Part shown: positions 8,461-23,873 of the stretch, piece by piece
Layout of the letters: every line of letters begins with the position of its first letter
How positions within the stretch are numbered: position 1 is the first letter of the stretch
Origin: a virus
Reading direction: 5' to 3' (one strand)
DNA: 32,492 bases
IMG/VR virus record: IMGVR_UViG_3300031772_000171
Coordinates: 1 to 32,492 of that record
The notes under the pieces: model-generated
The model's database searches: none
Seen by the model: the letters and a program-made list of their open reading frames with translations, nothing else
Told to the model about the DNA's origin: nothing
Position numbers and translations under genes: made by a program

Positions 8461-8799
8461 TCACCTCAAAGTGTATTGATGTCTAGGTGGAACAGCTGGT
8501 GGTTCTTCACTTACGATCTGAGCCGTAACAGCTGGAGGACTCTTTTTGCCTAACACAAATCCTGCAGCGCCAAGCATGCCCGCACCAAATAAAGCCCCGG
8601 TAGCGATGGCAATATCACGGTTTCTTGAGATTAGTTTTTCAAGAAGCAAAGGGCCTATTCCCCCCAAGGCAGCACCAATCAGTGCCCCTATGGCTAGGCC
8701 CTCCGCACCAGACGCAAGATCTGCACTACGCTTCTCGAGCTCCTCGTAGAAGCCCTTGAGCATGATCTCGTCGAGCTTACGGACTTGGAGGTGTATCAT
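8461..8799 (-). CDS. Small glycine-zipper membrane-type protein with E-L-E-K motif
   Basis: Function unknown. It carries the recurrent head-operon peptide GFYEELEKRSAD at residues 16-27. Two hydrophobic glycine/alanine-rich helices follow (AIGALIGAALGGIGPLLLEK and ATGALFGAGMLGAAGFVLGK), separated by the basic turn LISRNRDI and followed by a basic, proline-rich tail. This is the layout of a helical hairpin that could insert into a membrane. ATG 8799 has GGTGG about 9 nt upstream and overlaps the preceding 58-aa gene. ATG 8763 is an alternative start that would place the motif at residues 4-15, nearer to where other members carry it. I infer a virion or ejection protein. Confidence 0.72.
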   Translation of the reverse strand: MIHLQVRKLDEIMLKGFYEELEKRSADLASGAEGLAIGALIGAALGGIGPLLLEKLISRNRDIAIATGALFGAGMLGAAGFVLGKKSPPAVTAQIVSEEPPAVPPRHQYTLR

Positions 8800-8953
8800 C
8801 GTAGATCACCACCTGAATCCTTTGATTCTCATCGTACCAGACACTGATGATGTTGTATGGCGAAGGCACTGTATCATTCAACCATGTTTGATAGGCATTA
8901 ATGCCATCTTGATTATGCATGTCGTAGTGTAGTACGGCGACTTTTGTGGCCAT
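8777..8953 (-). CDS. Small phage protein, 58 aa
   Basis: A short gene with a very good start: AGGAG about 7 nt before ATG 8953. The product begins MATKVAVLHYDMHNQDGINA and ends in VWYDENQRIQVVIYDDTPPS-P, a small alpha/beta pattern with strands at both ends and a helix between. Its stop (TAA, 8777-8779) lies inside the next gene, whose ATG at 8799 overlaps it by 23 nt. Not recognised. It sits among neck and tail-completion genes and may be a small accessory virion or assembly protein, which is inference from position only. Confidence 0.72.
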   Translation of the reverse strand: MATKVAVLHYDMHNQDGINAYQTWLNDTVPSPYNIISVWYDENQRIQVVIYDDTPPSP

Positions 8954-8984
8954 GTTTTATCTCCTATTTGCAAAGATCATGAGG

Positions 8985-9188
8985 CTAACCTTTCGACCCT
9001 GTGCAATTCCGATTGGCGACTTTCTCCATAAGACCAGCCAAGACTGTTGTTAGAACTGATGCGGTTTTCTCTTTCATGTTCGGTCTCCCTTCTCCCACAC
9101 TAATTTTCATCTTGGCCATGGCCTTTTCGTGTTGTTCGGTAGCACTATGATGCTTCACCTTGACAGCCAGCTTTTCTAGCAAGTTCAT
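8985..9188 (-). CDS. Small head-operon protein with E-K-T-A motifs, 67 aa
   Basis: Not recognised. I chose ATG 9188 because GGAG lies at proper spacing in GTGGAGACAAGAAC. An upstream ATG at 9221 in the same frame overlaps the preceding gene and has poorly spaced signals. The protein begins MNLLEKLAVKVKHHS and contains KEKTASVL (residues 39-46) and LMEKVANR. All three resemble the E-[x]-K-[ILT]-A peptide seen across the head proteins. The remainder is basic and helical without an obvious membrane segment. It lies between the gp10-like neck gene and the 58-aa gene. Confidence 0.6.
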   Translation of the reverse strand: MNLLEKLAVKVKHHSATEQHEKAMAKMKISVGEGRPNMKEKTASVLTTVLAGLMEKVANRNCTGSKG

Positions 9189-9207
9189 GTTCTTGTCTCC
9201 ACTAGAC

Positions 9208-9681
9208 TCAAGTTGCGACATCCCTCACCTGCGCGTCGAAGTCACCGATCTGTTCTGCAGACTCGGCGATCCCTTGCTCGATGCCCTGGGCGAAGACATG
9301 TTTGCCCTCAGTACCAGGGTGTCTCCAGCCTCCTCTAAGATATGATTTTAACGTGGCGCGGCGAAAAATCAACCTCTGTTGTCCAAAAAAGAAGGTTCTT
9401 ATCGGTATTGTCTTGTTTAACAAATACCACATTACATGGGGTTTAACTCCTTCTTCAACTGCTTTGGCGTATGGAACGTCACTGATTATGTAGATCGTAT
9501 TGCCTACAACATACCCTTTAATTGAGTTTGCCAAATTTCCAGTTGGATGTTTGAATATCCCCGAGTAACAGATTTCTTTTATGCTGGTGACAATCTTTTC
9601 CTTGGCAATGCTGGCATCAGTGTAATCAGCCATGGCGGCTGATCGTGCCGTGGGCCGAAGGTCGATAACCTTCATCAACAT
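9208..9681 (-). CDS. HK97 gp10-like neck / tail-completion protein
   Basis: 157 aa, in the size range of the HK97-gp10-like family that joins head and tail. Characteristic features are GNLANSIKGYVVGNTIYIIS followed by VPYAKAVEEGVKPHVM, and a C-terminal GGWRHPGTEGKHVFAQGIEQ. In the family the R-H-P-G-T...F...A...A pattern is common. Position between the capsid genes and the sheath supports a neck role. ATG 9681 overlaps the upstream gene region (TAATCATG); a second ATG two codons in (9675) is also possible. No metal site or membrane segment is present. Confidence 0.75.
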   Translation of the reverse strand: MLMKVIDLRPTARSAAMADYTDASIAKEKIVTSIKEICYSGIFKHPTGNLANSIKGYVVGNTIYIISDVPYAKAVEEGVKPHVMWYLLNKTIPIRTFFFGQQRLIFRRATLKSYLRGGWRHPGTEGKHVFAQGIEQGIAESAEQIGDFDAQVRDVAT

Positions 9682-9683
9682 GA

Positions 9684-9881
9684 TTAACGCCTACGCTCGG
9701 ATTCGAGAGTTTGGGCAATTTTGATCCCGGCATTTAATCGATCAAATTCAGCCCTTGTAGCACCCTTGCCACTAGTGGCCTTATCCATCATCTTGAGCAC
9801 AGTCTCATTCACGCTCTTCTTGCCGTATTTACTTTCGGCGTGTGCCCGGTATTCACGCAAAGTAATTTTCCGTTCTGACAT
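9684..9881 (-). CDS. Small basic helical protein, 65 aa
   Basis: Not recognised. ATG 9881 follows GAGGAGGAATC, a very strong signal. The product is highly charged (SERKITLREYRAHAESKYGK, then VNETVLKMMDKATSGKGATR) and ends with TLESERRR. It predicts two or three helices and no membrane segment. It lies 2 nt upstream of the gp10-like gene, so it is probably co-translated with it and may be a small neck or assembly accessory. Confidence 0.68.
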   Translation of the reverse strand: MSERKITLREYRAHAESKYGKKSVNETVLKMMDKATSGKGATRAEFDRLNAGIKIAQTLESERRR

Positions 9882-9890
9882 GATTCCTCC

Positions 9891-10619
9891 TCACGCATGT
9901 GGACGATTCTCTGTCGCCACTTGCCGCTCGAAGACCCCAGTAGGATCCCTGAAGGTAACGGTTTGGATGTCTCCTAACACTCTCGCATTATCCGTAATTT
10001 CACGATTACGAAAGCGAATCTGCTTCTTGGCAAATCTGCGTAATTTTTCATGTTTATCTGCACCGGCTTTCATTAGACTTCGTGAAGATACACTTGGCGC
10101 TTCCATTTTCTGTGCCATAGACGGAGTCTTGGCCATGCCATATAATTTGCCGCCTAATTTTCCAGCTTTGGATCCTAGATATTCTCCAGCTGTCCATCCC
10201 AACATGTTCCCTAGAAGGGGCAAACGACTATAGGCAGTCATGCCTGCCCAGCTACCAGCAAGACTGCCCAGTCTTTCGGCACGACCAGGTTGTCCGGGTT
10301 CGTGTGTATTTTTGGCGATCGCCATAACATCCGGTGCCGAGAAAGCAGACATCAAGGCTATTTGTCCTTTAGTGAGTTTAGGGCTCTTCCAACCCGCCTG
10401 CATAGCTCCTACAGGATCAGTCATTAACTTACGACTAGTAGCAAGAAATTTGTTTGGAGCTATACTGCGCCAAAGGGCTCCTGCGGGATCTTTGAGGAAC
10501 CCCTCTGGTTTAGGAAATCCCTTAGCAGCTTCTTCGACAGTTTGGGCAATGACTTTCCCGGTAGAAGGCTTAATCAGCCTTTTGCCGACTTGTTTTAGGA
10601 GTTCCCCCGCAGCAGGCAT
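9891..10619 (-). CDS. Gly/Ala-rich virion protein, 242 aa
   Basis: Function unknown. The N-terminal third is basic and helical (AGELLKQVGKRLIKPSTGKV). The middle has a glycine-rich weakly hydrophobic region (AERLGSLAGSWAGMTAYSRL, then LGNMLGWTAGEYLGSKAGKL). The C-terminal part is basic (EKLRRFAKKQIRFRNREITD) and ends in a beta-looking tail with GVFERQVATENRPHA. The start ATG overlaps the stop of the preceding gene (TAATG at 10619). The glycine-zipper segment groups it with other head-operon proteins that look membrane-active, but it lacks their E-L-x-K peptide. An internal or ejected virion protein is a reasonable inference. Confidence 0.68.
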   Translation of the reverse strand: MPAAGELLKQVGKRLIKPSTGKVIAQTVEEAAKGFPKPEGFLKDPAGALWRSIAPNKFLATSRKLMTDPVGAMQAGWKSPKLTKGQIALMSAFSAPDVMAIAKNTHEPGQPGRAERLGSLAGSWAGMTAYSRLPLLGNMLGWTAGEYLGSKAGKLGGKLYGMAKTPSMAQKMEAPSVSSRSLMKAGADKHEKLRRFAKKQIRFRNREITDNARVLGDIQTVTFRDPTGVFERQVATENRPHA

Positions 10620-11389
10620 TATTCACTCCCTGGAATCTTCAGGGTGTATTCAATGTCCTGCGGGTTTATCTTGGTGAGTTGCAGGACCTGATGCACTAAT
10701 GTTCGACGTTTTTCTGTCTTGCTGATTTGCACGATCCTCCACCTATTTCTGCCGCTCTCAACCAAAATGTCCTTGGGACTTAACGGAGGGAAGTTGGAGC
10801 ACCAAGCAACTGTCTGTTCCGGTTGTATTTCAAACTGAGCATGACGAATCATTTCTGGAGGAGGATTGAAATTAACATTGAGATTGATAGGATCAAAAAA
10901 TCCACCAACCCATCCGGTATTAAAACATACTGCACAATTCGATTGAGTCTTACGTTGTTTGATGGCGTCCCAACATGCCGTGCATCGTTGTCCCCATGTT
11001 CTGCGGACAAAAGCATAGGTGGATTGCCCAACAAAGTTTTTCAATAACAGATTATTGCGCCTAATGATTTCGAGTGCATAAACATCTGGTTTCAGATTCG
11101 AGCTGGTTACTTTCGACCACACCAGTTTGGTGAGATCACTAGCCAAATAAACCTGGACTTTGTAATAGAACTTACGCCACTTGGATTTCAGATCGATATC
11201 GGCATCCTTATAAGCGAATAGGTTTTGAAGCCCATCCACTACTTTGGTGAATCCAGTATCCGGGGTATTGGACCTCCACACCGAGAAACGATAGAGCGAG
11301 ATGTCCTCAATGGTAGGTTTGATCACCCACCCAGCAATGAGAGCGTCTAAGTCGTAACATTCGACGTAGACGGAATCAAACTCCAGCAT
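10619..11389 (-). CDS. Virion protein with FN3-like domain and zinc ribbon
   Basis: 256 aa. Residues 1-100 read like a fibronectin-III-type beta sandwich (LYRFSVWRSNTPDTGFTKVV, KWRKFYYKVQVYLASD). Residues 130-165 carry a four-cysteine cluster, C136-x2-C139 ... C152-x2-C155, in the context QRCTACWDAIKQRKTQSNC and CFNTGWVGGFFDPI, a zinc-ribbon-like knuckle. The C-terminal part is beta rich. Phage virion proteins of the neck/baseplate class with a C-x2-C-W-D...C-x2-C-x-x-T-G-x-x-G-G signature are familiar to me, but I cannot name a family. It overlaps the genes on both sides slightly, as part of the connector cluster downstream of the capsid genes. Confidence 0.72.
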   Translation of the reverse strand: MLEFDSVYVECYDLDALIAGWVIKPTIEDISLYRFSVWRSNTPDTGFTKVVDGLQNLFAYKDADIDLKSKWRKFYYKVQVYLASDLTKLVWSKVTSSNLKPDVYALEIIRRNNLLLKNFVGQSTYAFVRRTWGQRCTACWDAIKQRKTQSNCAVCFNTGWVGGFFDPINLNVNFNPPPEMIRHAQFEIQPEQTVAWCSNFPPLSPKDILVESGRNRWRIVQISKTEKRRTLVHQVLQLTKINPQDIEYTLKIPGSE

Positions 11390-11894
11390 TGCCCTTCGCC
11401 TTAGCTATCTGATCCGCCAGTAACTTCTTTTCCGATGGTGACGTCCAGTATTTCTGACCTCCTGTTTGGGAACTGGCAAGTATTCGTTTCCGGAGTTCCT
11501 CTATAGTTGTAGCTTCAGATCCAGGAGGGGCTGTGGGAGCATACAAATCCGGTTTCTTAATAGAGATCTTCTTAGGACGAACCAGTTTCCTTAAAGATTT
11601 GGAACGGCGCAGCAGGAAATTTTTGAGCATTTTACCTCCACTTATAATAGAAGCTGCCGCTACACTTCCAGCCAATCCACCTATGATGTACCGTTTCCAT
11701 TGTGCTCTTGTCCATTTTGAGGGGTGTTTTTCCCTGAAATCTTCTTCAGCCTTTTTGATACGTTCTTTAGCGAATCTCTTAAGCTTATTCCTTTTGGAGG
11801 CAGGAGACTCGCTGGCGCCAAAGGCAGATGAGATCGTCTGATTATCAGCATCACCTGGATACTGATTGGGGTATTCTTCAGTCAGATCGGGCAT
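11376..11894 (-). CDS. Membrane-segment virion protein, 172 aa
   Basis: Not recognised. Two closely spaced ATGs exist (11900 and 11894). I prefer 11894, which overlaps the upstream stop as TAATG and has GGGGAG 6 nt before it. The N-terminal half is charged and helical (KRNKLKRFAKERIKKAEEDF). One clear hydrophobic segment follows (YIIGGLAGSVAAASIISGGK) with a strongly basic flank (FLLRRSKSLRKLVRPKKISI), and a proline-rich linker leads to a charged C-terminus (LRKRILASSQTGGQKYWTSP). The glycine/alanine helix and basic flank match other small proteins of this operon. It may be a capsid-internal or ejected protein that contacts membrane. Confidence 0.7.
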   Translation of the reverse strand: MPDLTEEYPNQYPGDADNQTISSAFGASESPASKRNKLKRFAKERIKKAEEDFREKHPSKWTRAQWKRYIIGGLAGSVAAASIISGGKMLKNFLLRRSKSLRKLVRPKKISIKKPDLYAPTAPPGSEATTIEELRKRILASSQTGGQKYWTSPSEKKLLADQIAKAKGNAGV

Positions 11895-12349
11895 TACCAT
11901 CTCCCCAGATTGATCTGACTGTACTCACTGTAGACGTTGCCCCAGCAAGCAGCTAGGTTGATAGCCATCTTAAGGGCGAGTTTTTTCTTTTCATAATCAA
12001 CATAGATCATGTTTAGCCAACCAATGTATTCAGCAGCTTGATCACTAACGCGAACAGCGATACCACCATCATTGTAATCCAACTTATTGCGACTGTACAA
12101 GATTCCGGCACTTGTTAGGACTTGAATAACCGCGCCTCTTAATAGAAGATTGGGAGATGGAAAATTGGAATAATCAACAATGTACAATGGCGGAGGAGTA
12201 TTATTCCAATCATCCATCGCCATATCCAATGCTAATTCCAACTGATTATCCGAAGACTCCTTCCGATCGAGAAGCCTGTTGAGTTCATCAATGTCACGTA
12301 GGAACTTACGTAGCATTCCTACGTATTGTTGCTTCGTGTAGGAAGCCAC
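11894..12349 (-). CDS. Putative head-tail connector protein
   Basis: 151 aa, first gene after the capsid and linker genes, a common place for the adaptor that stacks on the portal. It is largely helical: YVGMLRKFLRDIDELNRLLD, then ELALDMAMDDWNNTPPPLYI, then LLLRGAVIQVLTSAGILYSR and a C-terminal helix KKKLALKMAINLAACWGNVY. The N-P-P-P segment and the helical arrangement resemble connector proteins, but no conserved signature is decisive. It starts with GTG 12349, just after the preceding stop, with AAGGGC upstream. Confidence in the gene is high; confidence in the role is low. Confidence 0.6.
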   Translation of the reverse strand: MASYTKQQYVGMLRKFLRDIDELNRLLDRKESSDNQLELALDMAMDDWNNTPPPLYIVDYSNFPSPNLLLRGAVIQVLTSAGILYSRNKLDYNDGGIAVRVSDQAAEYIGWLNMIYVDYEKKKLALKMAINLAACWGNVYSEYSQINLGRW

Positions 12350-12352
12350 ATG

Positions 12353-12904
12353 TTAGCCCTTCAGGGTTTGCGACTCCAGAATCTTATTGACCATCTCATT
12401 CCGGTTGCGCTTATCAACCTGCATGCCTTTGACTAGTCCCTTGAGTTGGGCTTTATTCATGGCTTCTAGTTGTTCACGAGTATAGATTGTTTTAACTTCT
12501 GGTACTGGTGCAGCGCTAACTGGTTCAGGCGCTGGCGCAGGTGCTGGTACAGATACGGGTACAGGTTTTGGTTCATCGAGTTTAATTGGCTTTGCGGGAT
12601 CTGGGGCTTTGACATCAGCCGGTGTAACCATTGTATCGTGTGATGGCACATTAGGAACGCTCTCTTCCTTCTCGGGCACAGGTTTCTCCTTTTTTTCAAA
12701 CACTGCAGGTTTCACCATCGAGGCAACAGGGGCGGGATTGATTTCTTCGATCTTGCTGACTTCAATACCTTTGGCATGCATTAATCGACGATCCGCATCG
12801 GTAATTTGGCCCTCGTTAATAATGCACTGTTGTCCTTTGGACAAGAAACTGAAAGAAAAACCAAGATTAGTATTACTGGTGTTTCGAACTCGCACTTTTG
12901 CCAC
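12353..12904 (-). CDS. Proline-rich linker protein with C-terminal SAP/HeH-like domain
   Basis: 183 aa. The N-terminal 60 residues form a small beta-looking domain (FSFSFLSKGQQCIINEGQIT). A long Pro/Ala/Glu/Val-rich linker follows at about residues 60-140 (KKEKPVPEKEESVPNVPSHD, VSVPAPAPAPEPVSAAPVPE). The last 40 residues, TREQLEAMNKAQLKGLVKGM followed by NRNEMVNKILES, match the two-helix SAP/HeH/Rho-N type fold, which often binds DNA or tethers partners. Such proteins commonly lie just after the capsid gene in phages. The start has AAGGAAG upstream, between two intergenic hairpins and the coding region. A head-surface or neck attachment role is inferred. Confidence 0.72.
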   Translation of the reverse strand: MAKVRVRNTSNTNLGFSFSFLSKGQQCIINEGQITDADRRLMHAKGIEVSKIEEINPAPVASMVKPAVFEKKEKPVPEKEESVPNVPSHDTMVTPADVKAPDPAKPIKLDEPKPVPVSVPAPAPAPEPVSAAPVPEVKTIYTREQLEAMNKAQLKGLVKGMQVDKRNRNEMVNKILESQTLKG

Positions 12905-12918
12905 GAAGCACTTCCTTT

Positions 12919-12982: not shown

Positions 12983-12996
12983 CTTGCTCACTACCT

Positions 12997-13896
12997 TCAG
13001 CTGCCCTTCGACAGAGCGATTTTGCAGCAGCCGTTGACGTTACCGATGCCCATCCCAACGTCTTCCCAAGCCTGCCAGCTGATCATGTTGGCACGCTTGT
13101 CAATCCAGAACTTGGTCTGGTTGAGCAGGAAGAAGTTGCCCAAGAATTGCGGCTCCGCAAAGCCGTAGATGGTCCCTTCGGGCACAACACCATTCTTGAT
13201 CGAGGTCACCAGTTTGTAGCCAAGAATCGACTGGTAGCGGTACCCGTCGACAGTGATCTCAGCAGCAATCTTGCCGCCGACATCCTTGGCCTGGAAGGCG
13301 AGGACGTCAGCGAAGTCGATCTCGTGCATCAAGATCGTCCCCAGTCTGATTTCCTTGCCCGGGAGCAGCTTGGCCAGCTGACTGAGCGCAACGCGAGTGA
13401 CAGTGGTGTCAGTCACAATAGCGCTCAAACCAGAAACGCCAATCGCTGACTCGATGTACTGGAGGAACCTCAGGTCTTCGATCTTCTGGATGTCCTTGAC
13501 ACTGTTCTCTTCGATGACCCTGGTGATAGGCATCTCGTAAGCCAGCAGTTCCTGCTCCGTTTTCTCGAATTTCTCCGAGGAAATGGTGCTGAACGGGATC
13601 GTGTAACGCTTGCCTTCGACGTACCTGCCGTCGGGCTCCGAGCGCCAGTTGATCGCCATTGCCTTGCTGTCAGGCTCGATGTCTATGATCTTGACCAGTC
13701 CATCGTGATCCTCTGAGCGCTGGCAGTCCGCCTTGGTGACGCTCACGGGTGGGAGGATCTTGCGGGCGAAGCTAACTTCACGTAGCTTCTGTCTGATGAA
13801 AGCACCAGCAGCCTCAGCGAGCTTAGGTAGCTCCTGAGGATCGCTCACAGCCTGAGAGAAGAGGCTGTTGATGGTTGCCGCATCGACTTCGTTCAT
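12997..13896 (-). CDS. Major capsid protein (HK97-fold type)
   Basis: 299 aa, the usual size for a compact HK97-fold shell subunit. The sequence has a helical N-terminal arm (LFSQAVSDPQELPKLAEAAG, AFIRQKLREVSFARKILPP), a long E-loop-like stretch and a spine helix (IEENSVKDIQKIEDLRFLQY). A C-terminal P/A-domain half follows (YRYQSILGYKLVTSIKNGVV, FFLLNQTKFWIDKRANMISW, VGMGIGNVNGCCKIALSKGS). The gene sits after scaffold-like and decoration-like genes and is followed by strong hairpins. AAAGGAGATTAGAAA precedes ATG 13896. Residues 22-27 read E-L-P-K-L-A, matching the short peptide found in other head proteins, so the first roughly 27 residues could be a cleaved propeptide; that is inference. Confidence 0.85.
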   Translation of the reverse strand: MNEVDAATINSLFSQAVSDPQELPKLAEAAGAFIRQKLREVSFARKILPPVSVTKADCQRSEDHDGLVKIIDIEPDSKAMAINWRSEPDGRYVEGKRYTIPFSTISSEKFEKTEQELLAYEMPITRVIEENSVKDIQKIEDLRFLQYIESAIGVSGLSAIVTDTTVTRVALSQLAKLLPGKEIRLGTILMHEIDFADVLAFQAKDVGGKIAAEITVDGYRYQSILGYKLVTSIKNGVVPEGTIYGFAEPQFLGNFFLLNQTKFWIDKRANMISWQAWEDVGMGIGNVNGCCKIALSKGS

Positions 13897-13927
13897 TTTC
13901 TAATCTCCTTTCCTTCCTCAGTGCTCG

Positions 13928-14423: not shown

Positions 14424-14777
14424 TCATCTTGTGCCGAGCAGATAGGAAACCAAGGGATCCGCTTCCGATGAGAACGAATCACCCTTGATATGCCCTACCT
14501 TCTCGACGTCCTGTTTCCTGAGGAGCTCCTCAACCTGGGTTCCGTCGAGGTTGCATACCTCGCCGAATTTTTCCAGGGCATCCCCAGGATCCGTTTCGCC
14601 ATCGACCACCATCTGCAACACTACTTTTGCAGATTCGAGCTGCTTACTGAGGTTCTGTGCGAAGCTGGCGGTCTTCTCCAGTCCCTCTAATTTAGTGCGC
14701 AGCGTCTTATTGTCCGCCTCTAGCTGCTTGATGGCTTGAGCAGCCTTGGCCATTAAGATTCTGTCCTTGGGGTCCAT
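14424..14777 (-). CDS. Scaffold-like coiled-coil head protein, 117 aa
   Basis: I chose ATG 14777 because GGGAGG lies about 6 nt upstream; a longer frame from 14822 overlaps the preceding gene. The N-terminal half is a heptad-rich helix (KDRILMAKAAQAIKQLEADN, KTLRTKLEGLEKTASFAQNL). It continues with ESAKVVLQMVVDGETDPGDA and a short tail ending SYLLGTR. LEKTAS at residues 33-38 matches the recurrent head-operon peptide. Its position just before decoration and capsid genes and its coiled-coil character suggest a scaffold or core component. It is short for a full scaffolding protein, so the role is uncertain. Confidence 0.65.
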   Translation of the reverse strand: MDPKDRILMAKAAQAIKQLEADNKTLRTKLEGLEKTASFAQNLSKQLESAKVVLQMVVDGETDPGDALEKFGEVCNLDGTQVEELLRKQDVEKVGHIKGDSFSSEADPLVSYLLGTR

Positions 14778-15518: not shown

Positions 15519-15953
15519 CTACTCCTCTTCCTTTACGGCCGCAGCGAGCTTCTCAGAAAGACTCTTGGGAGTCTCTTCCTCCACCACAGTCTCTTCCTCG
15601 CTAGTAGTAGCGATCTTGGCCAGCTCGTCGGCCATAGCACGAGCCATCAGACGACCAGCTGCCTCAATCTCCTCGGCAGCAGTCTTTTCCTGAGCCTCGT
15701 ACTCGGCGTATTCGTCGATGATCTGCGCAGCAGCAGCCAGCTTAAACAGATCATGATCGAATTCCAGGCCCTCGTCCGTGAATGCCGAGACAACCTGTGC
15801 AACCTTCTCGGCATCCTCTTCGCTTAGCGCCTCGATGGCCTTATCGAGGGCGGCGTCAGCGGCTTCCTTGGTCATTCCCTCGCCCTCGGCCTCAACCTCG
15901 GCCTCGGCCTCAGGGGAACCAAACCGCTCGTTGTACAGTTCAGCAAGGCTCAT
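15519..15953 (-). CDS. Acidic head protein, paralogue of the 168-aa neighbour
   Basis: 144 aa and strongly acidic (PEAEAEVEAEGEG near residues 14-26, SEEETVVEEE near 118-127). Residues 100-116 read GRLMARAMADELAKIAT, closely matching GRFMARGFLDELQKLGS of the gene just upstream, so the two are probably diverged duplicates. It also holds EKTA (89-92) and SEKLAAAV, all variants of the short peptide shared by head proteins. AAAGGAGGAAGCGA precedes ATG 15953. There is no membrane segment. Acidic, helical proteins encoded between protease and capsid are often scaffold or prohead-core components; that reading is inferred. Confidence 0.72.
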   Translation of the reverse strand: MSLAELYNERFGSPEAEAEVEAEGEGMTKEAADAALDKAIEALSEEDAEKVAQVVSAFTDEGLEFDHDLFKLAAAAQIIDEYAEYEAQEKTAAEEIEAAGRLMARAMADELAKIATTSEEETVVEEETPKSLSEKLAAAVKEEE

Positions 15954-15977: not shown

Positions 15978-16484
15978 TTAGGCGTTTGTCTCGGTCGCGG
16001 GTGCTGGAGTGGGTTTGACCTTACGAGCGGTCGCGATGATTTTCTTCACGACGCTCTGCATTGCCACGTCCTTGGTGGGGGTATCGGGGCGATGTTTGGC
16101 TTCAATCGCCGCCTTAACCTTAGCCAGCACCTTTGAACCTTCCTGAGGTGTAGAAGCATCAGCTTGCTGCTGAACTTTCTTCCCACCGCCCATTTCCCAA
16201 TCAGAGCCCAGTTTCTGGAGCTCGTCGAGGAAGCCACGAGCCATGAAACGACCGAGAACAGTGGCTTCCTCAGCCAGTTTCTCAGCTTCGGCATGCTTCT
16301 CGCTTTCCTCCACCTCCGAGATAACTTTCGCTGCCTCTTCAGGAGTCAAATTCAACTCCTTGGCAACCTGAGCGACAACATCATCATCATCGCCACCATC
16401 AACAGCAGCTGCCGCTTTCTCGGTTTCGGAAGGAGCGCTGGTGTCCTCGAGCATTTGCGCGAGGATTTCACTTACTGTCGGCAT
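15978..16484 (-). CDS. Acidic head protein with D-E-L-Q-K-L-G motif, 168 aa
   Basis: 168 aa. The N-terminal half is acidic and alanine rich (SETEKAAAAVDGGDDDDVVA, then NLTPEEAAKVISEVEESEKH). Residues 78-93, GRFMARGFLDELQKLG, form the clearest internal copy of the shared peptide, and EAEKLAEEA precedes it. The C-terminal third is basic (KVKAAIEAKHRPDTPTKDVA, KKIIATARKVKPTPAPATET). The switch from acidic to basic halves is unusual. It lies directly after the protease gene in transcription order and is paralogous to the next gene. GGGAGACGAAGG precedes ATG 16484. A prohead scaffold or core role is plausible. Confidence 0.72.
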   Translation of the reverse strand: MPTVSEILAQMLEDTSAPSETEKAAAAVDGGDDDDVVAQVAKELNLTPEEAAKVISEVEESEKHAEAEKLAEEATVLGRFMARGFLDELQKLGSDWEMGGGKKVQQQADASTPQEGSKVLAKVKAAIEAKHRPDTPTKDVAMQSVVKKIIATARKVKPTPAPATETNA

Positions 16485-16502: not shown

Positions 16503-19367
16503 CTAGACAAATTTTCGCGCACCAGCGTACGCCCCAATGGCTCCTGCAGAACCAAGAAGTCCTGGATGCTTTTCAGCGAACGTTTGCGCGACATTTTTGC
16601 TTTTCCCGCTACGCTGCAAGTGAGCAGAATAGAGGTATGGAGCAAAAAGGCCTGCACCCGCCAGGGCCGCTCGATGAATTGCACCTGATTCCTTAGTCAT
16701 GCCGAGCATAGCATTGAACATCTCCTCTGACGAAGCGGTGCGCCCCTCCGGTAGAAGATGTGCATGCTTCACTATGGTACTACGCGAAACTGATTCGTCC
16801 CAACCCATTAGACTTTGACGGTACTGCTGATAGACCATGACATTTGTCATGGTTTTATCGGAAGCCGTCTTCGCTGTTTGACGACTACCTAATTCAGCAG
16901 CCCGTCTAGTTATCCAAGGAGCCAAAGCCGATCTTTCTGTCAAGAATGGTAGCAGTAACTCAATAGCTGCTGTCTTAATGGCCCCTTCGTCCACTATTGG
17001 CCGTATGTTCTGGGCTGGTTCGCCACGCCTGATCTTGATGATGATGATCCTCGTGACTTCATTAGGTTTCGCAACCATGCCTAGACCGGCCATGGATGAC
17101 AAGATCTGATGCAGAGGGAAATCACTAAGCCTCTCAAGAGTCTCGCGAGGCAGATCCTTTTCAGTCGATGAAATGAGGCGTGCTCTGTCGCTGAGACTCT
17201 TGAGTTGTTTAATCTTCGCCCTGTCTGCACCATCACTAAGATCCTGTGAACTCATTATTGCGGGAACCTCTTTTTTAATCTCACCTTCCTTTCTTTCGAA
17301 CGCAAGTTTGGCTTGCGCAACCTTGACTCTCTCGGCGATGACAGCACTAGGAATGCTGCAATGATTCAAGGTGTAAGCTCCACACCCAGTATCATCATCG
17401 CCTAGAAGAGTCTTTGAAGCTGTTGTTGCTGATGCCAATTTCATCAGCGTCATCGCTATTTTATCAGCAGGAATTAGCACTCTGGAAATATCAAAGAATC
17501 TAGGCATCGTATTAACCGCATAGACTTTATGTCCGTTAGACCATGTCTCATTCATGGCCGTCTTAAGATGTTCACAATATTCATCAACTTTTTTGGATCT
17601 GTGATGACAAACACTGCAAGAATCAAACGGAACTTTACAATTATGAACAGCAACATCATTTACTATATAGGAATTATCGCCCTTAACTTCGAAATTGTAG
17701 ACATAACCACTATAGATCTGTCGGGTAATACTCTTAATTTGGCGATAGATTGATCCATTGAAATTTCCAATATGCCTAGTTACTGAATTAGCGCGGACAA
17801 AAGGTCGAACATCAGAATATTCCAAAAGTTGATTAGCGCTCTCAGGATCGATCATCAATGCATACTTTTGTTTGTGCCCTAGACGATATCCGGTCCTCAT
17901 CGAGGGCCAATTGGTGCACAATCTGTTGGCTATTCCACAACTGTTGGCCAGAGCATGCATTTGCTCAGCCAAATCTTTGGAACAAGTATAAACTTGAATC
18001 TGTTCTGCCAGAGAGGCATCCCCATTCAGATAAGCTCCGATCAATTCCATCTTGAGGTGACGTGGCCACTGCATGATGGAGGAATGAATCCTCTTCTGAT
18101 CGGAGTATTCCCCACAATATTTGTAGAAGATCGGGGCAACTTTATGGTTATAGGCCCGCACTTCGGAACAAGTGCCATGTTTCTCACCATAGCTATTGTA
18201 GATCTTGGCGTTCGTGTCAAACTCAGATTTGAAGAGATCTACGCACTCCTGCACATAACTTTCACCGGCTGCAAAGGACAGAACTGTCGCACTGTGCTTT
18301 CCCTTATGTTTTAAGTAGCTGCCTTCAGCCAGGAAATAACCAAAAAGCCAGGCGATCCCAGGAGTAACCCAAGAAGGCGCTTTGCCCTGCGATGCAGGAG
18401 TGAGTAGAAAATCTCCAGGAGCCAATTCTTTAGCATCAGTAAACTTGAATGGCATAGTTGGTATTTTAGGAAGTTGTGAATAATTCTCACGAATACAATT
18501 ATGATTATCTCCACGTAGTTTATTGTGATGTCCAATTTTGAATCTGTTTTTGGTTGGAATTGCGAAACTGTACTTACCAGCAATAGATGTTTCTAACTTC
18601 TCTCCACACCCACATCGACAATAACGATCTAGTTCGCTAGCCCAGAAAGGATGCTCAGGAGTGGCAATGATTTTATTCTCCACTCCAAAGACTTCTATCT
18701 CATAAACTTCGCCATCATACCAACGACGTTGTGTATTGAGTACATTACCAATATTGCCAAGATGAGTTATTACTTCGTTCCCTGGAATTATATTCGAAAT
18801 CTTAATGCGTCGACCATCTGCCATCTGGACTATAGCGTCTTCAGTAAAACAGCCCATAGACCAGATAACGGATCCATTCTTGTCAATGTCATTAACAATA
18901 TCTGGTGCCTTCGCACGATCAGCTGCCAGAATCAAAAGAATGCGATGCATTTCCTTGTCATAAATTGGCAAATCAACCTTACCAAAAGAATTGGCTGGAT
19001 CTTTATTGACGTGATGTTTAAAAATGTGCGCCGATAAGAAGGTCTTATAGCGCGGGAGGGGGACTCCGGTGTAGGGTGACGGGTTCCTACCAGCTTCCAT
19101 TGGGGTCTGGATGCCGAGGAGATCCTTCTCGAAGAAGGCGTCACCGTTTACGTTACTACCCCAGAAATCCGCCGCTCCCAGCGCTACTATGAGTAAGTAA
19201 AGGAACTGTGGATCTGGCTCAAGACGTTCGAGGTAGTCTTTGACTTCGGGAGGTAACGTTCCGGCAGTCTTCTGGAAAACAGCTGCGCTCATCCTGGTTA
19301 GAATGCGAGTGTTCGGCTCGCCGAAGCGGTCGAACGCAGGAATCTCGAGCAGCTTGTCCATTGACAT
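16503..19367 (-). CDS. Prohead maturation protease interrupted by an intein
   Basis: Precursor of 954 aa; after splicing the extein would be about 550 aa. The extein N-part has GSNVNGDAFFEKDLLG (residues 70-85), then AHIFKHHVNKDPANSFGKVD with His118/His119, and ends with GSVIWSMG (165-172). In S78/U35-type prohead proteases a His near N-K-D...G and a Ser in S-[IM]-G form the active site, so Ser170 is the predicted nucleophile. The C-part resumes CKVPFDSCSVCHHR...DEYCEHL (Cys577, 584, 587, 598), a zinc-knuckle-like cluster I associate with large-phage head proteases. A long helical C-terminal region follows, ending in a glycine-rich LGSAGAIGAYAGARKF, possibly scaffold-like. QKTAG at 32-36 may be an autocleavage site (inference). 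Alternative: another head protein with this active-site-like fold. Confidence 0.8.
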   Translation of the reverse strand: MSMDKLLEIPAFDRFGEPNTRILTRMSAAVFQKTAGTLPPEVKDYLERLEPDPQFLYLLIVALGAADFWGSNVNGDAFFEKDLLGIQTPMEAGRNPSPYTGVPLPRYKTFLSAHIFKHHVNKDPANSFGKVDLPIYDKEMHRILLILAADRAKAPDIVNDIDKNGSVIWSMGCFTEDAIVQMADGRRIKISNIIPGNEVITHLGNIGNVLNTQRRWYDGEVYEIEVFGVENKIIATPEHPFWASELDRYCRCGCGEKLETSIAGKYSFAIPTKNRFKIGHHNKLRGDNHNCIRENYSQLPKIPTMPFKFTDAKELAPGDFLLTPASQGKAPSWVTPGIAWLFGYFLAEGSYLKHKGKHSATVLSFAAGESYVQECVDLFKSEFDTNAKIYNSYGEKHGTCSEVRAYNHKVAPIFYKYCGEYSDQKRIHSSIMQWPRHLKMELIGAYLNGDASLAEQIQVYTCSKDLAEQMHALANSCGIANRLCTNWPSMRTGYRLGHKQKYALMIDPESANQLLEYSDVRPFVRANSVTRHIGNFNGSIYRQIKSITRQIYSGYVYNFEVKGDNSYIVNDVAVHNCKVPFDSCSVCHHRSKKVDEYCEHLKTAMNETWSNGHKVYAVNTMPRFFDISRVLIPADKIAMTLMKLASATTASKTLLGDDDTGCGAYTLNHCSIPSAVIAERVKVAQAKLAFERKEGEIKKEVPAIMSSQDLSDGADRAKIKQLKSLSDRARLISSTEKDLPRETLERLSDFPLHQILSSMAGLGMVAKPNEVTRIIIIKIRRGEPAQNIRPIVDEGAIKTAAIELLLPFLTERSALAPWITRRAAELGSRQTAKTASDKTMTNVMVYQQYRQSLMGWDESVSRSTIVKHAHLLPEGRTASSEEMFNAMLGMTKESGAIHRAALAGAGLFAPYLYSAHLQRSGKSKNVAQTFAEKHPGLLGSAGAIGAYAGARKFV
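17640..18851 (-). mobile_element. Large intein with LAGLIDADG homing endonuclease
   Basis: Residues 173-576 of the protease precursor, 404 aa. Splicing block A is CFTEDAIVQMADGRRIKI with Cys173 first. Block B is IIATPEHPFWA. Blocks F and G are GYVYNFEVKGDNSYIVNDV and AVHN, ending His-Asn576. The +1 extein residue is Cys577. Two LAGLIDADG helices are present, WLFGYFLAEGSY (acidic Glu348) and LIGAYLNGDAS (Asp450), both with the metal-binding acid kept, so the endonuclease may be active. A CRCGCG cluster (249-254) with KIGHHN resembles a small zinc element between splicing and nuclease parts. All splicing residues are intact, so efficient protein splicing is expected. Confidence 0.96.
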
Positions 19368-19370
19368 CAG

Positions 19371-19913
19371 TTAGTCTTTCGATGCTCTTCCTGCAGCCAC
19401 GCCACCAGCACCAGCAGCTGCCGTACCGCCCATGCCGATCAGAGCAGCTTTCTCGGCTGCTGACATGGTACCCCAGGCTTTGCCGATGGTGCCTTTGCCT
19501 TTGGTAGCAATGCCTCCCCACATCTTCTTCAGGGAGCTACCAAAGGGCGAGAACATTGACTTTGCAACAGCCGCAGCTTTCTCGGTCTCAGGAGCGCTTT
19601 TCTTACTAGCGCGACCCAGACCGAAACCACCTGCACCAGCTACGCCAGCAGCAGTTGCGCCAGCAGCTACAGGATGCTTCTTCACGAAGGCTTTCCCGGC
19701 CGCCCCCCAGCCTTTAACTTTCCCGCTGACTTTTTTGCCAACATCTTTGGCTTTGGCCACAGCGGCTTTGCCGACTTTCTTGCCCTTGGCCAGAGCACTT
19801 TTGCCAGCCTTTTTCGCGGCGGCAATCATGCCCTTTGCACTGACAGCGTCTTTTTCGAGGTCCTCGTCAGTGCAGGTCTCAATGTACGCCTTTGTAAACT
19901 CCTGCAGGTTCAT
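19371..19913 (-). CDS. Lys/Ala-rich protein with two glycine-zipper helices, 180 aa
   Basis: Function unknown. It begins MNLQEFTKAYIETCTDEDLE, related in layout to the MNLQQF start of the 155-aa protein at 22473-22940. A very basic, alanine-rich stretch follows (AAKKAGKSALAKGKKVGKAA), histone- or DNA-binding-like, with K-x-G-K-K repeats. Two hydrophobic Gly/Ala helices follow: AAGATAAGVAGAGGFGLGRA and LIGMGGTAAAGAGGVAAGRA, each ending in a basic Arg-Ala-Ser-Lys cap. ETEKAA between them fits the shared head peptide. GGAGG precedes ATG 19913. I infer a capsid-internal, possibly DNA-associated and ejected protein. Confidence 0.72.
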   Translation of the reverse strand: MNLQEFTKAYIETCTDEDLEKDAVSAKGMIAAAKKAGKSALAKGKKVGKAAVAKAKDVGKKVSGKVKGWGAAGKAFVKKHPVAAGATAAGVAGAGGFGLGRASKKSAPETEKAAAVAKSMFSPFGSSLKKMWGGIATKGKGTIGKAWGTMSAAEKAALIGMGGTAAAGAGGVAAGRASKD

Positions 19914-19929
19914 CTTCTGCCTCCTTCAA

Positions 19930-19976
19930 CCGGGCCTCTGTGGGCCCTCCATTATGACCGAGGCGCACAGGCCCGG
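19930..19976 (-). other. GC-rich intercistronic hairpin
   Basis: CCGGGCCT (19930-19937) pairs with AGGCCCGG (19969-19976) around a 31-nt loop in the 77-nt gap between two head genes. There is no U-tract. It is similar in kind to the 15476-15507 hairpin and may regulate mRNA stability. Confidence 0.65.
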
Positions 19977-19990
19977 TCGAACCTTCATCT

Positions 19991-20365
19991 TCAGTCGATC
20001 CTCTGTCTGGCTGCATCTATCCTTCTGTTCACCTTAATGGTGTCTGGATCCCAGGGTTGCTTGAGGCCAGGTTTGGGCAAAGCGGCTGCCCTAGCTGCAT
20101 TGGCTTTCGCGTAATTTGTTAGCCAAGCAGGATTGGTTTTAACGGCATTCGTAGCAATTGTTTTTGTTCCTTTACTAAATAGACCAGTTAGTTTGCCACC
20201 AATGTTTTTAGCAAAATCACCAATGCCCGCTTTCTTCAGCAACTCTTCATCATAACCTAACTTAACGAGCTCATCAATAAAGGCATCTGCGAAGATCTGT
20301 TCAGCAGTCTTCTCGAGCTCGACGATCTTGGTGCGTTCAGCTAGCTTTTCGAGCAGTGAGCTCAT
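19991..20365 (-). CDS. Head-operon protein with repeated E-L-x-K motifs, 124 aa
   Basis: Not recognised by family. The N-terminus contains three copies of the shared peptide: LLEKLAERT (4-12), ELEKTAEQ (16-23) and AFIDELVKLGYD (28-39), then ELLKKAGIG. The sequence QIFADAFIDELVKLG resembles the motif region of the acidic paralogues at 15519-16484. The C-terminal 75 residues are basic and Ala/Pro-rich (LFSKGTKTIATNAVKTNPAW, AKANAARAAALPKPGLKQPW). ATG 20365 has AGAGGATAGAC upstream and overlaps the preceding gene by 29 nt. It is a probable capsid-internal protein. Confidence 0.7.
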   Translation of the reverse strand: MSSLLEKLAERTKIVELEKTAEQIFADAFIDELVKLGYDEELLKKAGIGDFAKNIGGKLTGLFSKGTKTIATNAVKTNPAWLTNYAKANAARAAALPKPGLKQPWDPDTIKVNRRIDAARQRID

Positions 20366-20708
20366 GTCTATCCTCTCCCCACAAGAAGTTCGTGGTCACT
20401 ATTTCCTCGTATTTCATCGGATAATCCTGGGATTCAATTAACTCCCCAGGTTTAGCCAGGCGGTATGGATCAGCCAGGTTTTGCTTTAATGTAGCATATA
20501 GATTTTCTTCAGAAGTCTTAGGGGCTACTTTGATGACCTGGTTCTTGGTTCTTATCTTAATCTTGGTTGGGATTGAAAGCAGGCATTTGATCAATTGGAC
20601 GATCACCTTGGTGTCGCCTTGGATGCGTATCTGTCCGCCTTCCAATGTCACATCAGCAGCCTTAACAGGCTTACTGGCAAGACGGTCACGTACCACTACT
20701 AAATTCAT
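20337..20708 (-). CDS. Small alpha/beta phage protein, 123 aa
   Basis: Not recognised. ATG 20708 overlaps the upstream stop (TGATG), indicating coupling. The N-terminal 65 residues look like a compact beta domain (VTLEGGQIRIQGDTKVIVQL, LSIPTKIKIRTKNQVIKVAP). A helical stretch follows (ENLYATLKQNLADPYRLAKP), then a C-terminus with YEEIVTTNFLWGEDRHEL. No membrane segment is present and no clear E-L-x-K peptide, which sets it apart from its neighbours in the head cluster. It may be an assembly accessory or a head protein added by another route. Confidence 0.68.
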   Translation of the reverse strand: MNLVVVRDRLASKPVKAADVTLEGGQIRIQGDTKVIVQLIKCLLSIPTKIKIRTKNQVIKVAPKTSEENLYATLKQNLADPYRLAKPGELIESQDYPMKYEEIVTTNFLWGEDRHELTARKAS

Positions 20709-21541
20709 CAACCTAATCCTGCTATTGTTGCCCAGTCTTGGACCCCAGCTACTTGAGGCTTTAGGCCTCTCGGGAACACGGTTCGATCCTGGACATTCTT
20801 GATATGTCCACCCTCCATAGCAATCATCTGTTGGAGACTTTGCGGATCAACATGGCCCCATTGCTGCATCTTCTTGAGCATTGCTTCTGCAACAGGTTTA
20901 TTAGTTGCTACGGTTTCTGGAGCATAGCGAAGTAGAAGATTGAAGTTTTCAATGGTCTTGGGATCTTTCTTGAGCTCGGGATTTTCCTTCAAGATTTCGG
21001 CAAGGATTGTTTTGGATTGCGTGCCATGTCTAATCCTTGATACTCCTTCCGAGATAGGATGAGTAACCATCTGTAGACCCTGACCAGCACTATGGACTAG
21101 CGATAAACCCAGAGCAGCCAAGACAGCAGCTGCAGCAGCTGGCGGAATGATTTTCTTGAGAGGGCCAGGGATTCTGCTCCAAATTCTATTGAACCCACTT
21201 ATTTCTCTTAGTTTTGATACATCCCCAGGTCTAGGTGTAGGTACTAAAGGTGCCCCAGCTGTCTTTTCAAAGTTGATCCAATCCAAGGCGGTCTGTACGG
21301 TATCTTCGTCGTATTGCTGTATTGCTTTCTCAATGAGTTGGCTCTCTATAATAATGGCCATTTCGGCTAGTTTCTCAATTTCTTGTTCACTACAACTTTC
21401 AAAAGTTTCAGCAACAAAGGCGACTGTACGCTTATGACCACACTCCATAGCATTAAGAAGCCCAGCACGAATTTCAGACAGTTTGGACATCTCCTCGCTG
21501 GAGATCTTCTTGTTCAGGTAAAGATCTTGTATGAGGCTCAT
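20708..21541 (-). CDS. Head-operon protein with a membrane helix, 277 aa
   Basis: Function unknown. The N-terminal 95 residues are helical and acidic and include EQEIEKLAEM (52-61) and WINFEKTAGAP (88-98), both matching the shared head peptide. A hydrophobic alanine-rich helix follows (IIPPAAAAAVLAALGLSLVH). Then come SAGQGLQMVTHPISEGVSRI and a C-terminal helical region (ENPELKKDPKTIENFNLLLR) ending in PQVAGVQDWATIAGLG. GAGGATCAGTAAC precedes ATG 21541. The combination of a possible cleavage peptide, a membrane-type helix and a soluble tail suggests a virion protein active in DNA ejection, by inference. Confidence 0.72.
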   Translation of the reverse strand: MSLIQDLYLNKKISSEEMSKLSEIRAGLLNAMECGHKRTVAFVAETFESCSEQEIEKLAEMAIIIESQLIEKAIQQYDEDTVQTALDWINFEKTAGAPLVPTPRPGDVSKLREISGFNRIWSRIPGPLKKIIPPAAAAAVLAALGLSLVHSAGQGLQMVTHPISEGVSRIRHGTQSKTILAEILKENPELKKDPKTIENFNLLLRYAPETVATNKPVAEAMLKKMQQWGHVDPQSLQQMIAMEGGHIKNVQDRTVFPRGLKPQVAGVQDWATIAGLG

Positions 21542-21567
21542 GTTACTGATCCTCGTTTCTCAACTGA

Positions 21568-21807
21568 TTACTCGTAACCTTCGTCATCATCTGGATCAGC
21601 ACGGAAGGCGGCACCATCTCTGGGCTGTTTCACCTCTTCCGTCTTCTTAGGTGCAGGAGAGGGAGTGCCGCCAGGAGGGACTGGCGAAGCACCAGCAGCC
21701 GTTGCCTTAGGTTTGCCAGCGCCTTCCCCTTTCGCTGAATCGGCAGTGTATCCACTGATCTTTGTCAGTTCTGCCTTGAACCCATCAAACATCGCTGTCA
21801 TCTTCAT
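21568..21807 (-). CDS. Short protein with an N-terminal E-L-T-K-I-S motif, 79 aa
   Basis: Not recognised. The N-terminus MFDGFKAELTKISGYTADSA (from residue 6) is a clear copy of the shared head peptide. The rest is low complexity, Pro/Ala/Gly/Lys-rich (GAGKPKATAAGASPVPPGGT, PSPAPKKTEEVKQPRDGAAF) and ends with an acidic PDDDEGYE. Thus only the motif looks ordered, as if the protein were a tagged disordered cargo or scaffold tail. GAGGAGAGGGCC precedes ATG 21807. The gene is small but has a strong start and fits the tight spacing of the operon. Confidence 0.7.
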   Translation of the reverse strand: MKMTAMFDGFKAELTKISGYTADSAKGEGAGKPKATAAGASPVPPGGTPSPAPKKTEEVKQPRDGAAFRADPDDDEGYE

Positions 21808-21817
21808 GGCCCTCTCC

Positions 21818-22465
21818 TCAGAACTGTGGGTAACCAGTAAACTGTTGTTTCTTCTTGTGTTTCGCGTCTAAGTAAGCAGCGGTTCCTAAAAGACCGGCGC
21901 CACCTAAAGCAGTACCACCAATCATGAGACGTTTATTGCGAATATGTTTGGCTTCCTCATCTATCATGTTTTGACGTTCAGTTGCTTCTTGTCGGGCTTG
22001 TCGCTCAGGATTATAAGCAATCATTTTACGATGTTCAGCTTTACGATGTTCAGCCTTTAATTTTTCCGTCGTTTCTCTCTCTACGCTTTTGGCTTCGCTG
22101 CCCAATCCTATTGCATAACCTTTTCCGAGTCTCTCCTTGGCTCGCAAGATATGACTCTTAATCTTTCTTTCAAATTGTCTTCCCTTGCGATGAAGCGCTC
22201 CTGCTGCATATCCAGTGGCACCAGAGACTCCTGCAGGATGTTCGGTTTTTCTGGCTGGGATGGGGCCGGAACGAATAGGAGTCCATTTGTTAATTCCTAA
22301 TCTTTTTTTAGCCTCTTGTTCTGCAGCTTCATATATTGGATTTGGTTTCTTGGCAAGTTGACTGGGCTTAAGATGTTGAATGCCACGAATAATCCTGCCT
22401 GCTGGACCAGAAATTTTCTCTAACTCTCCAGAAAAAGATGTCCAAAAAATCTCATTATCGTTCAT
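21818..22465 (-). CDS. Basic head protein with E-L-E-K-I-S motif and membrane helix, 215 aa
   Basis: I chose ATG 22465 because GTGAGGACGCA precedes it. A longer frame from 22585 overlaps the neighbouring gene and is not needed. The N-terminus FWTSFSGELEKISGPAGR (7-24) holds the best copy of the shared peptide. The body is very basic (IPARKTEHPAGVSGATGYAA, then KLKAEHRKAEHRKMIAYNPE with a repeated AEHRK). A glycine-zipper helix near the C-terminus, LMIGGTALGGAGLLGTAAYL, precedes DAKHKKKQQ. Motif, basic body and C-terminal membrane-type helix form the archetype seen in several neighbours. The role is unknown; capsid-internal cargo is inferred. Confidence 0.73.
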   Translation of the reverse strand: MNDNEIFWTSFSGELEKISGPAGRIIRGIQHLKPSQLAKKPNPIYEAAEQEAKKRLGINKWTPIRSGPIPARKTEHPAGVSGATGYAAGALHRKGRQFERKIKSHILRAKERLGKGYAIGLGSEAKSVERETTEKLKAEHRKAEHRKMIAYNPERQARQEATERQNMIDEEAKHIRNKRLMIGGTALGGAGLLGTAAYLDAKHKKKQQFTGYPQF

Positions 22466-22472
22466 TGCGTCC

Positions 22473-22940
22473 TCACACAAGCAACCGACTTGGATCTTGG
22501 TAAATCTGCGCCGAACGTTGAGGCGTATTATATATGGGTCCGTGATAGGTTGGTTTCCTATATTGCTCTTGACCCTTACGCACACCAGCTATTACGCCTA
22601 CAGGAGCTGCTGCCATCATTAATGGCTTGGTTGCGCTTAATTCTCGAACATCATGTTTTTTAGCTAAACGATTTAAAAGCTTTGCATCTGGCGGCATTGC
22701 TCCTCTAGACATCCTGGATACAAGAGCCCGATCATATGGATCCATATTTTTAGCCCTACCCAATATTTTCTTTGCAACTTCTTTAGAATTTTTGCTATCC
22801 ACCCGCATAGGTCTGGTTACCGTCCAACGAGCAAGACCTTCACCGCCCTCTACCGCTTTCTTAGCAGAGTGCCATATGCCCTTTATCCAGGGCTCAGCAC
22901 TCAGCTTCACCATCTCACGAGCAAATTGCTGCAAGTTCAT
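22473..22940 (-). CDS. Head protein with F-A-R-E-M-V-K-L-S motif, 155 aa
   Basis: The N-terminus MNLQQFAREMVKLSAEPWIK carries a variant of the shared peptide and resembles the start of the 180-aa protein at 19371-19913. The middle is basic (VDSKNSKEVAKKILGRAKNM, ALVSRMSRGAMPPDAKLLNR). A short hydrophobic segment (PLMMAAAPVGVIAGVRKG) is followed by a Tyr/Pro/Gln-rich tail ending QDPSRLLV. TGAGGGGTAG precedes ATG 22940. No enzymatic signature is present. It belongs by layout to the group of motif plus basic body plus small hydrophobic helix proteins. Confidence 0.72.
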   Translation of the reverse strand: MNLQQFAREMVKLSAEPWIKGIWHSAKKAVEGGEGLARWTVTRPMRVDSKNSKEVAKKILGRAKNMDPYDRALVSRMSRGAMPPDAKLLNRLAKKHDVRELSATKPLMMAAAPVGVIAGVRKGQEQYRKPTYHGPIYNTPQRSAQIYQDPSRLLV

Positions 22941-22958
22941 CTACCCCTCAGTTGTGGC

Positions 22959-23873
22959 TTATCGTCTTTGCTGTTCTGACAGAACGAATTCGTCGACCTT
23001 CTTGGAATTGTTCAGGTCTCCCATGCGATTGCGAACGTAAACGAATTTCTCGTCCAGTGTCTTACCAGCTCTATTATTACTCTCGAATTCAGTCTGATAA
23101 TTAGCCAGCGTATTAAGAGAGACCACAATTGGATGACTGCCATTAACTACCTGCACACCTATCGGCTCACTCATATTCTTGAGCTGAGGAGAAATAAGTT
23201 CAGGATCTACTGCTTCGCCATGCTTCTTCATCAGGTACTGGAGCTTGGCGCCAAAGATGCCCTCCTTGACCATTTGTTCTGCTGTCTTCACGAAAATCTG
23301 GGCAATGCGGTCTTCATCACCCAACTTGCGTGTTGCAGTCCAGATCTCCTCAAGGGGCGTACCGTTCAAGACCATCTGTTTGGCCATCTTATAGAAATGG
23401 TCCTCTTCAACAGAGATTTTGCCACGGAGGACAATTTGTCTGCTATTAAGTTCTTCCTTGGCTGCCGCTAGTTTTTGCAGGGCGATACTAGCCTGCTTCA
23501 GTTTCTCCTCAACTGCAGGTTCGTTGCTTATAGACGAAACCCCAAAGATTTTGTTTACATCAATGCGTTCGTGTTTCTTGGGTCCTACGAAATAATCATG
23601 TGCCACTTTCTCCTGTTCAGCATCGAGAGTAGTAATAATCTTGGATGGATCAGCAACTTCAAACTGGAATGTTTTGTCTGTGGCTGTTTTGAAAAGCTGA
23701 GCGTAAGTCTGATGATTGGCTACCTCACAGATTCGTTGAATTTGAGTGGGTAGGAGGTCATTTGCTTCAGCAGTCTTGAGAATGGTAAGGTTCATAGAAG
23801 TCCCATTCTCAAGGAACTCCTTGCTAGCCACATGTCCCCATTCAACGAATCGTAAAGGCGAGAGATCATTCAT
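22959..23873 (-). CDS. Helical head-operon protein, 304 aa
   Basis: Not recognised. It is mostly helical and charged. Several K-T-A elements occur: LTILKTAEAND (near residue 29), AQLFKTATDK and IFVKTAEQMV, which are looser variants of the shared head peptide. A long helix pair at about residues 115-170 (EEKLKQASIALQKLAAAKEE, then FYKMAKQMVLNGTPLEEIWT) looks coiled-coil. The C-terminal part is more beta-like (PIGVQVVNGSHPIVVSLNTL) and ends charged. GGAGGATTAAAA precedes ATG 23873. It is the first structural-type gene after the HNH gene and may be a scaffold, core or minor head protein. Confidence 0.72.
   Translation of the reverse strand: MNDLSPLRFVEWGHVASKEFLENGTSMNLTILKTAEANDLLPTQIQRICEVANHQTYAQLFKTATDKTFQFEVADPSKIITTLDAEQEKVAHDYFVGPKKHERIDVNKIFGVSSISNEPAVEEKLKQASIALQKLAAAKEELNSRQIVLRGKISVEEDHFYKMAKQMVLNGTPLEEIWTATRKLGDEDRIAQIFVKTAEQMVKEGIFGAKLQYLMKKHGEAVDPELISPQLKNMSEPIGVQVVNGSHPIVVSLNTLANYQTEFESNNRAGKTLDEKFVYVRNRMGDLNNSKKVDEFVLSEQQRR

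Follow-up and report, generated by a model that had tools for sequence, protein, structure and literature searches.

The window analysed here is a whole viral record of 32.5 kb. Its minus-strand head/tail operon covers about 4.4-24.6 kb and has plus-strand genes on either side. The protein set comprised 29 minus-strand and 27 plus-strand proteins. Two genes of the operon were assigned by similarity:

12997..13896, minus strand: major capsid protein (PHROG major head protein, E=5e-15; PDB 6wkk, phage G gp27, E=4e-9)
16503..19367, minus strand: prohead (head maturation) protease, 954 aa including an intein (PHROG head maturation protease, E=3e-4)

The protease is homologous to gp222 of Salmonella phage Arash, to a protein of Vibrio phage D69 and to gp19 of Bacillus phage G, and the capsid proteins of these three cultured phages are also related to that of the window. 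In the window and its relatives the gene order places the protease gene just upstream of the scaffold and capsid genes.

The 404-aa intein contains a LAGLIDADG domain (17640-18851, minus strand). It interrupts the protease motif SMG|C beside the serine predicted to be catalytic. Inserts that end in VHN occupy this position in the proteases of at least five relatives (for example L045, L071, L077, L008 and L052), and further long proteases are apparently interrupted at other points. At its upstream end the head operon has an ORF resembling an HNH endonuclease (23893-24603, minus strand).

An extended tag and a shorter core

The earlier note had reported that a short peptide recurs in proteins of the minus operon. 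The recurrence is real and far above chance, and the peptide is in fact two nested motifs, an extended tag and a shorter core. The extended tag reads M-N-x-I-M-L-A-[AS]-F-x-D-E-L-x-K-[IL]-[AGS] and usually starts near residue 9. Its pattern EL.K[IL][AGS] occurs 6 times in the 29 minus-strand proteins, compared with 0.1 in shuffles, and 0 times in the 27 plus-strand proteins. A weight matrix built from relatives only detected the extended tag in 7 of the 29 minus-strand proteins (each p≤0.006) and in 0 of the 27 plus-strand proteins. The plus-strand proteins thus lack the tag, as the earlier note had stated, and so do sheath and tube. Five of the seven tagged proteins have it near the N-terminus; two scaffold-like proteins have it internally. 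The tags are as follows (p values from the weight matrix).

22896..22925, minus strand: N-terminal tag FAREMVKLSA, p155 residues 6-15 (p=0.002)
22406..22435, minus strand: N-terminal tag FSGELEKISG, p255, at residue 11 if translation begins at the ATG for a 215-aa product (p=0.002)
21751..21780, minus strand: N-terminal tag FKAELTKISG, p79 residues 10-19 (p=0.002)
20255..20281, minus strand: tag FIDELVKLG, p124 residues 29-37 (p=0.002)
16206..16232, minus strand: internal tag FLDELQKLG, p168 (p=0.002); ortholog RGFHDELGKIAG in L003/G001
15609..15635, minus strand: internal tag MADELAKIA, p144 (p=0.006); relative L225 AGRIMARAFADELEKIAVG
8722..8751, minus strand: N-terminal tag FYEELEKRSA, p112, at residue 5 if translation begins at the ATG of codon 13 (p=0.002)

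In p124, the core-like LEKLA at residue 5 and LEKTA at residue 17 both precede the tag. The gene for p168, a scaffold-like acidic protein, lies between the protease and capsid genes, and p144 is a second scaffold-like acidic protein. To judge from their sequences, the internal tags of these two proteins point to the scaffold/protease core as the place where the tag would act.

The shorter core is [FLMI]-x-K-x-A, and the last five residues of the tag match it. The examples first listed as one motif divide between the two: those in the seven proteins above are extended tags, while FEKTAGA, LEKTASF, FQKTAGT, ELPKLAE, LEKLAVK and EIEKLAE match the core only. The protein described earlier as 67 aa has 78 aa in the present reading.

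The extended tag in related phages

A search for relatives of the capsid protein gave 121 IMG/VR stretches, from which 80 loci were kept. Genes of these metagenomic loci came from a simple caller, so that some start sites may be off. F..EL.K[IL][AGS] was found in 45 of 875 capsid-strand proteins, compared with 0.05 by shuffling, and 39 of these matches fall within the first 30 residues. The same pattern was found 0 times on the strand opposite the capsid gene; 2 of about 40 strict tags were on that strand. Conservation in related phages and enrichment over shuffles on the strand of the capsid gene, two of the checks that the earlier note had proposed, both came out in its favour.

When all of IMG/VR was searched, FxDELEKIA had exact matches in 111 stretches and the scrambled FxEDLKEIA in 7. 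Among 86 ORF matches, 70 lie within 30 residues of the start, most commonly at residue 9, whereas matches to the scrambled control are internal. A relative of the window capsid protein was present on 33 of 41 tag-bearing contigs and on 0 of 7 control contigs. Neither a capsid nor a protease gene was detected on the other 8 tag-bearing contigs; each of these is a fragment, and some at least share gene families with the main group. The sole contig from a cellular genome with a relative of the capsid protein (L256, 6.5 kb) is binned in a Methanoregulaceae archaeon MAG. An archaeal host and misbinning are both possible, and this contig is too weak a basis for assigning a host.

The consensus of 129 tag instances is M-N-x-I-M-L-A-A-F-[FV]-D-E-L-E-K-I-A. 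Directly after the last A, conservation drops from 2.63 to 0.37 bits, which is the background level. The 165 distinct tagged proteins fall into about 70 families with a median length of 133 aa, and each genome has about seven to nine tagged genes. When 76 tagged proteins were aligned, they shared the consensus MxxxxxxAFxDELEKIA and otherwise nothing notable. Many are enzymes or small glycine-zipper/membrane-like proteins, not structural ones. Pfam matches include SNF2 helicase (5 members), zinc peptidase/metallopeptidase (2), inorganic pyrophosphatase (1e-45), Nudix, C92 peptidase, GNAT and glyoxalase, with weak matches to kinase and PARP/ART. Two near-copies of the tag stand near the N-terminus of some proteins (FEDELQKIS and FEDELEKIA in L207; FTDELEKIA followed by FDDEMEKGA in L159).

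The DNA downstream of the tags is unrelated within a genome, which rules out recent duplication of one gene. Codon agreement was near the codon-usage expectation in 3 of 5 genomes and above it in 2.

The core motif and the prohead protease

On the window minus strand, [FLMI].K.A occurs 26 times, compared with 10.3 expected from shuffles. On the capsid strand of six genomes it occurs 395 times, compared with 171 expected (2.3-fold). The control patterns L.R.A, F.E.A and L.E.A were not enriched, nor was the core on the opposite strand. In an unbiased list of three-residue patterns with homologs removed, EL.K and L.K.A were near the top on the capsid strand only. A significant excess of the core was found in 32 capsid-strand proteins and 0 opposite-strand proteins. 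T4-type LxE and phiKZ-type AxE were ruled out as the dominant signal by the enrichment counts.

The core clusters in head genes and is near background in tail genes. Copies are found repeatedly in the putative scaffold proteins; others stand at the N-terminus of the capsid protein and flank the catalytic domain of the protease. Its sites in the window include the following.

21257..21271, minus strand: core site FEKTA in p277 (sequence)
19263..19277, minus strand: core site FQKTA upstream of the protease catalytic domain, predicted auto-processing site 1 (alignment column filled in 40/40 proteases)
17433..17447, minus strand: core site LMKLA just past the catalytic domain, predicted auto-processing site 2 (39/40 proteases; position in the window protease assigned by similarity to TAKVMxKLAS)
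14667..14681, minus strand: core site LEKTA in p132 (sequence)
13816..13830, minus strand: core site LPKLA, major capsid protein residues 23-27 (conserved in the capsid alignment)

In an alignment of 41 proteases, one column just before the catalytic domain holds the core in 40/40 and another just after it in 39/40, and further core positions lie in the C-terminal tail. The alignment itself could have drawn K-x-A motifs into one column; an alignment-independent test found the N-terminal site in 38 of 40 proteases, compared with 4.3 for shuffled N-termini. In an AlphaFold2 model of the L070 protease, the catalytic domain spans about residues 39-245 and 7/7 core sites lie in low-confidence segments. 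This placement was equalled by 4 of 568 circular shifts. Foldseek ranked T4 gp21 first for the protease model (probability 0.84, a weak match with E=0.47) and the HSV-1 protease, also weak, fourth. The predicted catalytic residues H103, H104 and S160 (in SMG) are invariant in 19 proteases, which fits the conserved His and Ser of assemblin-fold prohead proteases.

In 23 capsid proteins, K25 of the core site is invariant and A27 is at least 90% conserved. In the capsid model, which is of poor quality (pLDDT 55), the site falls in a predicted helix.

The core is also enriched in the cultured relatives: 41 sites compared with 12.8 in Arash, 47 with 10.6 in D69 and 25 with 10.1 in phage G. T4-type and phiKZ-type sites were not enriched in any of the three. 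In Arash, head-core genes contain 36 core sites compared with 3.5 expected, and tail and baseplate genes 14 compared with 11.1. The Arash genes richest in the core flank the protease (gp220 with 9 sites, gp223 with 8, gp225 with 6), and the Arash protease has core sites in matching places, at residues 28-32 and 216-220. Where the window capsid protein has LPKLA, Arash has LVKEA (residue 25) and D69 has LTKEA; the phage G capsid protein has no core site. Arash gp242 (L260:5467-6336; 289 aa), which is encoded far from the protease, has 8 core sites and in this resembles the putative scaffold/core proteins. By its sequence it may be a further core protein.

The extended tag was absent from the scanned regions of Arash and D69, so that these two phages support the core only. 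Since the core is enriched in the cultured relatives and the tag was not found in the Arash and D69 regions, the core is older and broader. From these sequences the tag appears to have arisen as an elaboration in the phage group of the window.

Interpretation and comparison with known systems

From the enrichment, position, strand, gene context and conservation of the two motifs we infer roles in docking, cleavage, packaging and ejection. We consider it likely that the window belongs to a large phage in whose head assembly they form a two-layer peptide code, in which the core is the cut site of the prohead protease and the extended tag is an address label ending there.

In the first layer, the core would be recognized and cleaved by the phage's own prohead protease, with the cut probably after the alanine, since conservation stops there. 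The protease would trim itself on either side of its catalytic domain, cut scaffold/core proteins at several places and probably trim the capsid protein near residue 27. This last step is doubtful, because the poor model puts the site in a predicted helix and the capsid protein of phage G has no such site. In the second layer, the N-terminal A-F-x-D-E-L-x-K-[IL]-[AGS] would be a capsid-targeting signal. Its F, L and I would share one face of a short helix, and within the prohead it would dock cargo proteins of unrelated kinds to the scaffold/protease core. As the tag ends in a cleavage site, it would then be removed; the cargo, retained in the mature head, would leave it together with the DNA at ejection.

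The earlier note had taken the peptide for an equivalent of the T4 capsid-targeting sequence, a targeting signal and/or a protease site. At the sequence level this reading is supported. The tag is N-terminal on many unrelated capsid-strand proteins and co-occurs with the capsid lineage, its last residues repeat the motif that brackets the catalytic domain, and that motif clusters in head and not tail genes. All tested sequence-level predictions of this reading held, save for the capsid structure model, which is too poor to judge.

Encapsulin cargo peptides dock cargo and stay on the protein. By analogy, the tag could be an uncut loading peptide that docks to the scaffold or shell and is kept on the mature protein, the core repeats of the scaffold being docking repeats. 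That F, D, E and L are conserved in addition to the core suggests binding, and p144 and p168 are themselves tagged. We regard this reading as unlikely, however, because it leaves unexplained why the core flanks the protease catalytic domain, why core sites are confined to low-confidence linkers in the protease model and why conservation stops so abruptly after the last A. If the core is a real cleavage site, the N-terminal tag might instead direct its carriers to a membrane, to a partner in the host or to some other compartment of the phage, and the many tagged enzymes and small membrane-like proteins would suit such a destination. This seems quite improbable, given that scaffold-like proteins are tagged as well, that the tag is almost confined to the capsid-gene strand and that it ends in a core site. 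We give almost no credence to a compositional or helix artefact or to one duplicated gene family: the motif does resemble an ordinary amphipathic helix, but within-protein shuffles, scrambled or substituted motifs, strand controls, about 70 unrelated families and the unrelated downstream DNA speak against these readings.

With somewhat less assurance than for the two-layer code itself, we favour a broader view: a portable nine-residue label would load swappable effector enzymes into the heads of widespread, large uncultivated phages for delivery to the host. It would be read by a new class of prohead protease (hydrophobic-x-K-x-A) that reaches Arash, D69 and Bacillus phage G. If true, the sequence by itself would suffice to list the proteins that these phages inject, a task that is otherwise difficult unless virions are analysed by proteomics, and many short hypothetical genes would gain functions. 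It would also mean a new prohead-protease specificity shared with cultured phages, and the tag would be a candidate means of bringing proteins into the heads of large phages.

In the open-access literature searched, we found no description of DELEKIA, DELQKIA, DELTKIA, DELEKIS or the motif.

Polyvalent proteins with P1 DarB-like SNF2, zincin, InPase and ART domains are inferred to be packaged and injected with DNA (PMC5512222), and the tagged enzymes described here fall in domain classes that overlap with those given there. In contrast, the tagged proteins are mostly short (median 133 aa), and they share a common targeting peptide, of which we found no mention in the passages searched.

In T4, the capsid-targeting sequence (CTS) is an N-terminal propeptide of 10-20 residues on unrelated internal proteins (IPs, Alt). 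It targets them to the prohead, and the prohead protease gp21 cleaves it off; the same enzyme also cuts scaffold and core proteins many times (PMC5694885). Here too a short N-terminal sequence is common to unrelated proteins, presumably internal to the head. Its end matches a core that in alignments brackets the protease catalytic domain. However, [LI]-x-E is enriched here only 1.13-fold over shuffles (z 6.2 in six genomes; z 1.4, not significant, in the window), compared with 2.3-fold for [FLMI].K.A. The code here is F-x-D-E-L-x-K-I-A with a K-x-A core, and the tag is not a member of the T4 CTS sequence family.

In SPN3US and phiKZ, ejection proteins have N-terminal propeptides that the protease removes, with several cut sites per protein (PMC5694885, PMC10052503). 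The SPN3US protease gp245, whose phiKZ counterpart is gp175, auto-cleaves (PMC5694885). The propeptide-like N-terminal tag, the multiple sites per protein and the predicted auto-cleavage of the protease resemble this system. Compared with the tag, the SPN3US/phiKZ propeptides are mostly longer than 100 residues and are cut at A/S-x-E; here A.E and S.E are not enriched, and [AS].E is below expectation. Judged by these motif counts, the tag sequence and its predicted specificity are neither T4-like nor phiKZ-like.
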